IMG/VR virus record: IMGVR_UViG_3300010885_044285
Span: 1-21,880 of that record
Direction: 5' to 3' (one strand)
Origin: a virus
Length of the DNA: 21,880 bases
Shown here: positions 7,051 to 11,381 of the stretch, piece after piece
Numbering within the stretch: position 1 is the stretch's first letter
Layout: the number at the start of each line of letters is the position of its first letter
Made by a program: the position numbers and the translations under genes
Notes under the pieces: model-generated
The model's input: the letters and a program-made list of their open reading frames with translations, nothing else
Databases searched by the model: none
What the model was told of the DNA's origin: nothing

Positions 7051-7080
7051 ATTATACCGAAAATAATTTCCCATCTACAA
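7051..7080 (-). promoter_or_regulatory. sigma70-like promoter before the holin-like gene
   Basis: TATAAT at 7051-7056 with TTGTAG at 7075-7080 and an 18-base spacer (minus strand). The TAA stop of the phosphoesterase gene lies inside the -10. The -35 matches only the TTG half. A transcript would have a leader of about 60 bases before the holin-like ATG. Confidence 0.5.
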
Positions 7081-7855
7081 CACAAGTGTAGTCAGGGGAA
7101 ATTTCTACTATCTGCACATGAGGATGCTGACCATTCTCAATGTGTGCGATAGCAAAACCTTTTTGCCAATTGTGATTTTGAGTATATTTCATACCATCAC
7201 TTTTTTCATCACACATGTGTCCAATTTCGTATCCACGAATTGTTCTGCCACCAGTTGCTAGTGGGAGTTCGTATGTTTGAAAATGAGAGGCAATTCTGTG
7301 TGAGTGTCCTCTAATCAAGGAAATTTGTAAATCATCAATATCTTTTCTTACAGCACCAGTATCTGCAATTGAAAGTCCATGATGAACGTGAATATCTCCA
7401 AAGCGTTGCTTTGGCAATTCGTTGTAATAAATATAATCATAACCTAAAGAGTCTAAAGACCACAAAGATTCTGGCGTAACATCAGACAAGTACTCTGGAA
7501 GCTTTTTGTCTAGGTAATCAAAAATTCTAATATCGTGATTTCCTAATGCTGAGAATAGTTGAGCGTCTGGAAGCATGTCTCTTGTCTTGGCATAAAAATC
7601 TCTTGCACCTTTGGCCTCATGACGAATCATTGGAACAATTAGATCTCTGCTATCATCCTTATGCAACTGCATAAATTCTGCAGAGCGACCTTCTGTATAC
7701 TTGCTATAGCAAGCTTGATCATCTGTGTCGCCCAAGTAATCTACTACATCTGGCTTAAACCACTTCATAACCTTAAACCATAATTCAATGGCCTTATCAT
7801 CTTGATATGGAAATTGCTGATCAGACGATAGCATCCATTTTAAATCATTACTCAT
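7052..7855 (-). CDS. calcineurin-like metallophosphoesterase
   Basis: 267-aa protein with the full set of calcineurin-like phosphoesterase motifs: SSDQQ (D12; the first motif normally D-x-H), GDTDD (G42, D43), GNHD (105-108), HHG (158-160) and GHSH (183-186). These residues would hold a two-metal centre that hydrolyses phosphoesters in nucleic acids, nucleotides or proteins. The first-motif histidine appears replaced (D-Q-Q), so metal binding may differ slightly. There is no signal peptide, so it acts in the cytoplasm. AAAGGG lies just before the ATG. It is transcribed from a near-consensus promoter (7882-7911), which suggests strong or separately timed expression. The substrate is unknown; DNA processing and RNA/nucleotide turnover are both possible. 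Confidence 0.88.
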   Translation of the reverse strand: MSNDLKWMLSSDQQFPYQDDKAIELWFKVMKWFKPDVVDYLGDTDDQACYSKYTEGRSAEFMQLHKDDSRDLIVPMIRHEAKGARDFYAKTRDMLPDAQLFSALGNHDIRIFDYLDKKLPEYLSDVTPESLWSLDSLGYDYIYYNELPKQRFGDIHVHHGLSIADTGAVRKDIDDLQISLIRGHSHRIASHFQTYELPLATGGRTIRGYEIGHMCDEKSDGMKYTQNHNWQKGFAIAHIENGQHPHVQIVEISPDYTCVVDGKLFSV

Positions 7856-9094: not shown

Positions 9095-9325
9095 TTATCC
9101 TTCGCTAATAGTGGCATACTCTTGTAATAATGCCTGTTTTTTAGTATTCTCTTTTTGTAATTCACCATTTAGATTATCTAAATTTTCTTGATTAGGCTGA
9201 GTCAACGAACTTTCAGAAATAATCGCAACATTTATATTATAAATATTTGTTATAATGCTTTTTATATGTTGATTAATTATGCCAAGTTTTTCCTGAGTTG
9301 TTAATTCTGTTTCCATAATATTCAT
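9095..9325 (-). CDS. 76-aa coiled-coil protein
   Basis: Small helical protein rich in Gln, Asn and Glu: two helices (about 9-38 and 46-71) separated by a loop with SLTQPN, so a helical hairpin or trimeric coiled coil. There are no cysteines and no membrane segment. The first ATG (9325) overlaps the preceding stop (TAATG) and has GGTGAT eight bases upstream; an in-frame ATG at 9316 is also possible (see the promoter-like site at 9324-9332). It is followed eight bases later by another coiled-coil gene. Family not recognised; a tail-assembly or virion accessory role fits the neighbourhood. Confidence 0.65.
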   Translation of the reverse strand: MNIMETELTTQEKLGIINQHIKSIITNIYNINVAIISESSLTQPNQENLDNLNGELQKENTKKQALLQEYATISEG

Positions 9326-9332
9326 TATATCA
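9324..9332 (-). promoter_or_regulatory. extended -10 element overlapping a start codon
   Basis: Minus strand TGATATAAT, exact TGnTATAAT, made from the end of the 91-aa gene (its TAA stop lies inside). The -35 is weak (TATTCA at 17 bases). Transcription would begin at or next to the in-frame ATG at 9316, giving a leaderless message. Confidence 0.3.
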
Positions 9333-9600
9333 CATCACCACTATTCTGAATAGACCCCCATTTGCCAACAGGACAACTTGCGTGAGGTAGTTTGGCCTTT
9401 TCAGTCATAAAACAACCACATTTTTTACATGTTTTTGTAGCGCTAATTAAAAAGGGGCAGCTTAAGCAATGTTGTTCATAGCGGTATTTATAGTCTTCTT
9501 CACTTACTCTTGCAATTTTAGGATTAAGTAAGTCCCAAGGTCTGACTGGATCTCCCGCCTGTTTTTCTTTCCATAAATGCCAAGGTGTTTTATCTGACAC
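9325..9600 (-). CDS. six-cysteine zinc-binding small phage protein
   Basis: 91-aa protein. Cysteines 45, 48, 58, 61, 63 and 76 lie in the pattern HCLSCPFLISATKTCKKCG then CFMTEKAKLPHASCPVGKW, two CxxC knuckles plus two more cysteines. Small proteins with this C-P-x-L ... C-K-x-C-G-C-F-M ... C-P-x-G-K-W core are known to me from many tailed phages next to tail genes, without a proven function. Zinc binding is likely. The N-terminus is Trp/Pro-rich (TPWHLWKEK). It starts with GTG, overlapping the TAG of the preceding gene (TAGTG), with GGAG seven bases upstream, so it is translationally coupled. Confidence 0.75.
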   Translation of the reverse strand: MSDKTPWHLWKEKQAGDPVRPWDLLNPKIARVSEEDYKYRYEQHCLSCPFLISATKTCKKCGCFMTEKAKLPHASCPVGKWGSIQNSGDVI

Positions 9601-9880: not shown

Positions 9881-9910
9881 ATTATACCCTAGTGTATGTG
9901 AAGTTGTCAA
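9881..9910 (-). promoter_or_regulatory. perfect consensus sigma70 promoter at end of fibre gene
   Basis: Minus strand TTGACA (9905-9910), 18-base spacer, TATAAT (9881-9886). Both boxes are exact. It lies within the last codons of the 499-aa fibre gene, and the TAA stop is inside the -10. Start would fall just before AGGAG of the 86-aa gene, giving a leader of about 15-20 bases. Confidence 0.75.
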
Positions 9911-11381
9911 GGGTTGATCCTAAATTATTTGCTGTATTTAATTTAATTATTCCTACGCTGGTCTCCCCGTTTGCAAAAGCTTTTGTAGAACCAGTTGCTA
10001 CGTGGGTTAGATCTGTACTCATTTGAGTAGTCAAATTAGTATCTGAATACCCCTTTGCAGTAATATTGTCTCCACTTGTAGCAACTGATAGGCTATATAT
10101 TTTTGAATATGCAGAATTACTGCTTGCCAATTCTTTTTCTGCCGCTGAAACTATTGAGCTACCGCTTGCGGACCATATCTTTAATAAAGAATAATATGTT
10201 GTAGTGGTTGAAGAGGTTACTGTATTGCATTGATAGCAAGTGGTTTGAGATCTATAGCAATTATATCCATCAACATAGTTTGTACCACTTTGACAATATT
10301 GTACCTCATATTGATAGGTATTTAAATTAAATCCCTTAGAACACAGCTCTCCTACTGTTGTGGGACCACAAACATAAGTTGGACCTGGATCAAAGATACC
10401 AACTTCATATACTGTTCCTCCACAAAAATAAGTGCTTCCTGTACAAGCATTTGGCTGTGTGATTGCAATTCCATAACAATCTCCAATATTACAAGTAAAT
10501 CCATAATTTGAATTACAGGTATAAGATTCTACTGAACAGCTACACCCACTTCCTCCAGCATTTGTTGATATTGGAGGCCCATTGCAGGCATAACTTGTAG
10601 TAGTTGATTGATTATAATATGTTGATGCTGCCCAATATGATCCTCTTGCTGTAACCCAAAAAGCTAATCCTGGGCCACCACCACCGCTTGGTATAGATGC
10701 AGATAAAGAGACATTGTTTTTATGAACTTCAATTGTTCTCATTGGATATGTATTTGCTGCATCAGAAAATCCTGGGATGTATGAATTGCTAGCGGCGTTT
10801 GAACTTATACCCCAAGAGTCTGCTGAATTTGTTGCAGGATTTTTATATGAAGAGTAAACAAATCCTGCACTACTTGTTCCAATTTCTTGACTATTATTAG
10901 TTCTGTCAAAAGTGTCTGTAAAGTTTGGTATAAATGCTGTTGCTCCAGATGCTGAATAATAGTAATAGTATGTTGATCCATCTAACGATAAAACTTTATC
11001 TCTTGTATAAAAAATTTGTTGTGGCGTTGTGGCATCTGCCTGAGTTACTGTATAGGGAGAAGATACTACGGTTCCTTCTGCAGTTGTTGATGCTTCGCTA
11101 GGTATGGTTCCATCTGTTATTTTAATCAACTGTGTTGTTACAGAGATTCTATTTGTATATGTTCCAGCAGATCCAATTGTAACTTGGGCTTGCGCTGCTG
11201 AAGAGCCACCAGTATTTGCAGGTCTTGTGCTTTGGGAAGGTCCTGAAATCGTAAAAAATAATTTCCAAACACCAGAAATTTTAACCCACATATTTGAAAT
11301 TGTACGCCATGTCCCAGATATTTTTACATAATTAGCTGTTACTGTTTTCCAAGCATCGCTGATCTTAACATGATAAGTCAT
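9882..11381 (-). CDS. tail protein with triple VKISG-W repeat and Cys-rich insert in a jelly-roll domain
   Basis: 499-aa virion protein. Residues 5-46 are three 14-residue repeats (VKISDAWK, VKISGTWR, VKISGVWK), a motif seen in phage tail and fibre proteins. Residues about 60-150 are Ser/Thr-rich beta sequence. Residues 154-499 look like a concanavalin-A/LamG-like sandwich: FTDTFDRTNN at 154-163, then GPGLAFWVTA at 236-245, YYSLLKIWS at 396-404, and a final LGSTLDNFTYTRV. Between strands, residues 266-385 form an insert with 14 cysteines (all those in the protein) and many Tyr/Asn/Gly, resembling no enzyme I know. This suggests a disulphide- or metal-stabilised loop on a sugar-binding domain, hence receptor binding. 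AGGA precedes the ATG. It lies 8 bases after the 532-aa fibre gene. Confidence 0.8.
   Translation of the reverse strand: MTYHVKISDAWKTVTANYVKISGTWRTISNMWVKISGVWKLFFTISGPSQSTRPANTGGSSAAQAQVTIGSAGTYTNRISVTTQLIKITDGTIPSEASTTAEGTVVSSPYTVTQADATTPQQIFYTRDKVLSLDGSTYYYYYSASGATAFIPNFTDTFDRTNNSQEIGTSSAGFVYSSYKNPATNSADSWGISSNAASNSYIPGFSDAANTYPMRTIEVHKNNVSLSASIPSGGGGPGLAFWVTARGSYWAASTYYNQSTTTSYACNGPPISTNAGGSGCSCSVESYTCNSNYGFTCNIGDCYGIAITQPNACTGSTYFCGGTVYEVGIFDPGPTYVCGPTTVGELCSKGFNLNTYQYEVQYCQSGTNYVDGYNCYRSQTTCYQCNTVTSSTTTTYYSLLKIWSASGSSIVSAAEKELASSNSAYSKIYSLSVATSGDNITAKGYSDTNLTTQMSTDLTHVATGSTKAFANGETSVGIIKLNTANNLGSTLDNFTYTRV
10227..10586 (-). other. 14-cysteine insert in the tail protein
   Basis: Codons 266-385 of the 499-aa protein. 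Cysteines at 266, 280, 282, 289, 297, 302, 312, 320, 338, 347, 363, 375, 382 and 385; none elsewhere in the protein. The flanking sequences (YYNQSTTTSY and TTTTYYSLLK) look like the two ends of a beta hairpin. Confidence 0.7.
11244..11369 (-). repeat. three 42-base in-frame repeats encoding VKIS-x-x-W units
   Basis: Residues 5-18, 19-32 and 33-46 of the tail protein share V-K-I-S-[DG]-x-W-[KR] with an exact 14-residue period. The third copy ends in hydrophobic LFF. Probably a small beta repeat that links the protein to the tail tip. Confidence 0.75.

Follow-up and report, generated by a model that had tools for sequence, protein, structure and literature searches.

A putative disulphide-locked, exchangeable head on a ConA-like tail adhesin of uncultured phages

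The adhesin gene and its genomic setting

The DNA analysed here, referred to as the window, is a contig of 21.9 kb from an uncultured bacterial virus. On the minus strand, genes for proteins of 881, 164, 1310, 280, 308 and 532 amino acids lie upstream of a gene for a 499-residue protein, which closes the tail module and is described below as a tail adhesin (Table 1). The 881-residue protein is tape-measure-like by its size and position and had no match in a comparison with PHROGs; it is followed by minor tail proteins, the adhesin and finally replication genes, which encode a helicase, a primase, a single-strand binding protein and a DNA polymerase. Neighbours of the adhesin gene match the PHROGs tail families phrog_10359 and phrog_9983, so that the adhesin is encoded among tail genes, as receptor-binding proteins are, and its gene occupies the same position in related contigs. 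The host of the window phage is likely to be actinobacterial, because the best annotated relatives of the 1310-residue tail protein are found in Streptomyces phages; genome scans with the neighbouring phosphoesterase or with the sandwich core of the adhesin found no bacterial host. Two contigs with family members (L140, L144; L numbers denote related loci) carry tail-sheath genes, and in a third (L139) tail-fibre-like genes lie beside the family member, whereas a sheath gene is absent from the portion of the window's tail module that is seen; the family therefore probably crosses tail types.

Table 1 Features of the adhesin gene in the window
Feature	Position	Strand	Basis
Gene for 499-residue tail adhesin, closing the tail module	9882..11381	-	Open reading frame and translation
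Triple 'xVKISxxW' repeat, N-terminal, residues 1-43	11253..11381	-	Match to phrog_25859 (annotated as function unknown), residues 1-67, E 2.3e-7
Middle region, residues 44-153	10923..11252	-	Alignments; common to L020, L021 and L043
Predicted ConA/CBM66-like sandwich, N-terminal half, residues 154-265	10587..10922	-	pLDDT mostly 70-97 and fold comparison
Predicted outgoing stalk strand, residues 249-266, to C266, the first cysteine	10584..10637	-	DSSP, E106-123 of the model
Cysteine-rich knob, residues 266-385, 14 cysteines	10227..10586	-	Composition; cysteine parity of relatives
Predicted returning stalk strand, residues 388-406, just past C385, the last cysteine	10164..10220	-	DSSP, E245-263 of the model
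Predicted ConA/CBM66-like sandwich, C-terminal half, residues 386-499	9885..10226	-	pLDDT mostly 90-98 and fold comparison

A preliminary description, made from the sequence alone, had confined all 14 cysteines of the protein to a block of 120 residues, and both the count and the coordinates proved exact (cysteines 266, 280, 282, 289, 297, 302, 313, 320, 338, 347, 363, 375, 382 and 385). The block consists of 11.7% cysteine, 10.8% tyrosine and 14.2% glycine. The clustering is far beyond chance, since six further tail-module proteins, counted for comparison, together have only 5 cysteines in 3475 residues. The N-terminal repeat is probably the segment by which the protein is attached to the virion.

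Two further minus-strand genes of the window deserve mention. A small protein with six cysteines (9325-9600) has a sub-threshold match to DUF6171 (E 1.5e-4), and similar six-cysteine reading frames recur just downstream of the fibre gene in several related phages. A metallophosphoesterase (7052-7855) with up to 97% identity across related phages and 577 matching stretches in IMG/VR is unusually conserved, although it adjoins the hypervariable fibre.

Relatives of the adhesin

The protein encoded at the fibre position differs in nearly every phage, yet it opens with the same triple repeat, which stands at the start of this gene in those related loci that were inspected. The same sandwich is present in five of these loci, the window included, each time with a cysteine block at the same place. 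Scans with neighbouring genes gave 38 loci with the 1310-residue protein and 80 with the phosphoesterase. Searching twice with sandwich alignments, whose patterns were free of cysteines, yielded 47 and 49 loci. After removal of duplicates, 41 distinct proteins of uncultured phages were obtained (38 plus those of L211, L212 and L214). In all 41, the insert lies between '...GVAFWVTDANSWWASS' and 'YYTELKLYK.VSG', and a cysteine-rich insert is thus found at the same hairpin in every relative recovered, which confirms and extends the initial observation: the feature is real and larger in extent than first noted. Ahead of the insert no cysteine occurs in any member except L165, which has two upstream of its likely methionine start. 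The cysteines of the insert span 54-352 residues across the family. Neither of two findings that would have spoken against the preliminary description, a continuous fold with unconserved cysteines or scattered, unpaired ones, was encountered.

Searches of general collections were largely negative. Neither the whole protein nor its insert alone retrieved a relative when IMG/VR was scanned with single proteins, and the insert alone matched nothing among phage and plasmid records. Full-length relatives had no match in an annotated phage collection or matched by the N-terminal repeat only, and in 50,697 annotated phage records all matches were to this repeat or were weak and limited to the core. 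None of 21 family members matched PHROGs; Pfam gave no relevant match and PDB sequences no convincing one, matches to alphavirus E1 (E 0.14-0.19) being treated as chance; and no family member was detected in GTDB genomes at the sensitivity of the search. The annotated minor tail protein gp16 of Arthrobacter phage Brad (L216:1960-3528) has a C-terminal segment that resembles the core and lacks a cysteine insert. It is a possible insert-free cousin, but its matches are weak (tblastn E 0.04, hhalign probability 4.7%) and it was excluded from the evidence. In L214 (3959-5100), the adhesin reading frame is split past the cysteine block into two overlapping frames, owing either to a sequencing error or to a broken gene.

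Parity and conservation of the cysteines

The number of cysteines is even in 41 of the 41 distinct proteins and lies between 6 and 40; among 38 of the family proteins, 14 different counts occur. Two 5'-truncated proteins and the split reading frame of L214 were included because their cysteine blocks are complete; cysteines of L211 and L214 were counted from the methionine start, and the count of L165 is even from either start. Clustering of the inserts gave 31 clusters at 70% and 25 at 40% identity. If the 25 clusters are taken as independent, even counts throughout would arise by chance with a probability of about 2^-25 (about 3e-8), a value that is approximate because the relatives are not fully independent. 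Among other proteins of the neighbouring loci, which served as controls, those with at least eight cysteines had even counts in 16 and odd counts in 17 cases, and those with at least four in 97 and 66 cases.

The all-even counts are what a disulphide-rich (knottin-like) domain would show and point to fully paired disulphides. Conservation within the inserts was compared in seven pairs or groups, and in four of them (the 12-cysteine group, L159/L166, L020/L043 and L150/L166) cysteine columns were kept preferentially over the others (12/12 versus 84/131, 18/18 versus 76/105, 14/16 versus 95/171 and 16/20 versus 42/109). Cysteine columns showed no significant excess of conservation over other insert positions in L154/L173 and L136/L147, nor in the near-identical pair L156/L203. 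L020 has an extra pair of cysteines, close together and just beyond the insert, which is missing from its close relatives. The disulphide knot proposed at the outset is thereby strongly supported, and full pairing of the knob cysteines appears well supported for the family.

Predicted structure

An AlphaFold model built with 32 sequences, which superseded a first run with five (mean pLDDT 43.7), reached a mean pLDDT of 71 overall and values above 90 over most of the sandwich. Together with matches to ConA-like folds at Z values up to 17.2, it bears out the proposals that the flanks of the insert form one beta sandwich and that the insert lies within a ConA-like domain. The knob (model residues 131-240) fell below pLDDT 50, that is, it was not predicted, and gives no measurable distances between cysteines. 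The two predicted strands that lead to and from it (model residues 106-123 and 245-263, 18 and 19 residues long) form a long antiparallel ribbon, which stops at the first cysteine and resumes three residues past the last; the outgoing strand was present in the shallow five-sequence model too. The model thus predicts a stalk-and-knob architecture.

In a VIA-align comparison, the closest solved fold was the C-terminal tip domain of the central fibre gp20 of mycobacteriophage Douge (PDB 8ZDP/8ZDQ), with Z 17.2 and rmsd 3.0 over 176 residues at 14% identity. This tip has no room for a similar stalk-and-knob insert, since the stretch comprises about 189 residues, of which 176 are aligned. CBM66 of Bacillus subtilis (PDB 4B1M/4AZZ; Z 16.3) and other ConA-like lectin folds (Z about 16) share the same overall sandwich at about 12-13% identity; their chains of 161-165 residues, about 150 of them aligned, likewise hold no large insert, and comparison with PDB sequences gave no match between them and the family. 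Foldseek found nothing in the PDB at E <= 0.001 (best E 0.028), and in BFVD six proteins of uncultured Caudovirales matched (E 2e-26 to 1.7e-12). The core is accordingly described as a predicted ConA/CBM66-like jelly-roll sandwich in terms of fold only, as distinct from a sequence family.

Divergence and exchange of the heads

The adhesins of L150 and L166 share 99% protein identity in the N-terminal and 100% in the C-terminal core, whereas their inserts are only about 58% identical, with 18 cysteines in both. Synonymous divergence (dS) amounts to 0.07 for the core but 1.10 for the insert. In longer versions of the same contigs, identity near the insert is 97-100% on both sides; the head has therefore been replaced rather than just mutated. 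The same pattern is seen in L154/L173 (dS 0.21 in the core versus 1.65 in the insert). In L159/L166, dS is similar, but dN/dS is 1.06 in the insert and 0.16 in the core. From these comparisons, knobs are apparently exchanged as cassettes between lineages. Among L155, L158, L161 and L164, dN/dS is about 0.1-0.2 throughout and insert and core evolve at similarly slow rates, which fits a folded head under selection; judging from these slow inserts, head variability is not universal. L153 (6901-7200) and L167, whose contigs are otherwise near-identical, show a second local drop of identity shortly past the insert.

Certain motifs, for example 'C.GGPISTDSSGTGCGGC', vary in place and number among the heads of the window and of L020, L043, L128, L131 and L142. 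Since these recurring motifs, which were picked by eye, stand at differing places and in differing numbers, they suggest that the heads may draw on a shared pool of modules.

Function of the head and alternative explanations

On balance we consider it likely that the adhesin forms a receptor-binding tip whose disulphide-locked head can be exchanged. The ConA/CBM66-like sandwich of a tail-tip or fibre adhesin would serve as the scaffold, of which one hairpin would extend as a beta-ribbon stalk carrying at its end a head rich in glycine, serine, threonine, tyrosine and asparagine, with charged and large hydrophobic residues scarce. This head would be held by seven intrachain disulphides, as which the 14 cysteines of the window knob are taken, and not by a packed core, and because cross-links would do the work of core packing, its sequence could vary almost freely provided that cysteines are gained or lost pairwise. 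Recombination within the conserved stalk and core would pass whole heads from phage to phage. The head would contact the host surface and set specificity, which is the preferred reading of its role. The disulphides would most likely be formed once the protein is outside the reducing cytoplasm, and we infer oxidation after lysis; the adhesin thus poses the question of how a reducing cytoplasm yields such a disulphide-rich protein. Adhesion is a natural role for the window protein, because the expressed Douge tip domain bound mycobacterial surface glycans (PMC13033339).

The alternative that survives best, although we hold it to be unlikely, is a knob that is disulphide-locked but structural (a stiff spacer, trimer clamp or protease shield), with the sandwich binding the receptor. 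ConA/CBM66-like domains themselves bind sugars, the Douge tip binds glycans without a large insert in the aligned stretch, and strong purifying selection acts on the inserts of some lineages. Yet a specificity element is expected to behave as the head does here, being swapped while the sandwich stays almost the same, and so many unrelated sequences would be superfluous in a spacer.

A cytoplasmically folded module binding zinc or an iron-sulphur centre, like the metal sites of some phage tail tips, would account for clustered cysteines despite the reducing milieu, and a CxxC and a CxC motif each occur once in the window insert. Against it stand the lack of histidine in the window insert (24 histidines in 6479 insert residues overall), the shifting of cysteine spacing from member to member, and cysteine counts which are multiples of four in 20 of 38 proteins and of the form 4n+2 in the other 18, which pure four-cysteine sites do not explain. 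The metal-bound loop offered in the preliminary description is accordingly weakened, and we judge it improbable.

That the block is unfolded, drifting low-complexity sequence, its cysteines owed to codon bias in TGT/GGT/AGT-like sequence, is scarcely credible: its biased composition (Gly, Ser, Thr, Tyr, Asn) and internal repeats would fit, but not the even parity and preferential conservation of the cysteines, the near absence of cysteine from neighbouring tail proteins and the dN/dS of about 0.1 in several pairs. Equally disfavoured is a diversity-generating retroelement or other programmed mutator, for although hypervariable tail adhesins such as Mtd of phage BPP-1 are its classic targets, no RVT_1 match was found in the 36 records carrying the family, some of them fragments, and indels and exchange at high synonymous divergence are seen beyond point changes. 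The earlier idea of a variable host-range element therefore stands in so far as inserts vary and are traded on near-identical cores, whereas cycling inside one phage is unsupported, the differences resembling cassette exchange between lineages.

Comparison with known systems

Variation of phage adhesins is usually ascribed to domain swaps, point changes or retroelements. In Mtd and other retroelement targets, the surface that contacts the receptor is hypervariable while the phage-tail scaffold beneath it is fixed; Mtd uses a C-type lectin scaffold and point changes, whereas the present family relies, as far as its sequences indicate, on cassette exchange. Douge gp20 is, like the window protein as read here, a tail adhesin, and Douge is an actinobacterial phage; the searched text of PMC13033339 does not mention disulphides.

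The nearest likeness in design is the ultralong CDR H3 of bovine antibodies, in which a beta-ribbon stalk carries a disulphide-bonded knob whose cysteines vary in number and pattern and which is subject to deletions (PMC5994613). The resemblance is one of analogy and not of descent, as scaffold (an immunoglobulin sandwich) and organism are unrelated. In cattle, a single germline D segment is diversified by AID hypermutation, whereas diversity among the phages apparently comes from cassette exchange and substitution, and the phage knobs can far exceed the bovine ones in size. We lean, by a small measure, towards a general display system of tailed phages, a counterpart of these cow loops, in which disulphide-locked heads with always paired cysteines, drawn from shared modules, would be mounted on a single hairpin of a ConA-like tip and passed between phages of different morphotypes. 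No description of large disulphide-rich phage heads was found in the papers searched, all from an open-licence library. If the reading holds, the stalk-plus-disulphide-knob answer to sequence diversity would have been used a second time, independently; the reading would account for the folding of a freely varying, Gly/Ser/Thr-rich sequence that almost lacks a core, and an even cysteine count at a fixed hairpin would be a signature for specificity elements in uncultured phages.

Other fibre-position proteins

Several proteins at the same position are built differently. Those of L069 (1657-4383), L083 (3-2906) and L002 (11757-13364) have a C-terminal domain that looks like a Hint/intein-type domain ('GGCFVYGTQIQMADGSWQNIEDLYIGDEV...'); those of L069 and L083 contain 27 and 33 cysteines, even numbers once the presumed catalytic cysteine is set aside. 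The fibres of L006 (18086-21151), L036 (18034-21003), L058 (2112-4103) and L100 (606-7439) end in threonine-rich linkers with different cysteine-rich modules ('SCVCAYSDYGTYYYSPQCC...SCCPN', 'YWKCNSADVANPSNPCTYVGQC'), and a fibre of L024 (21759-22937) has, after a proline run, a terminal tail of 29 residues with 10 cysteines.
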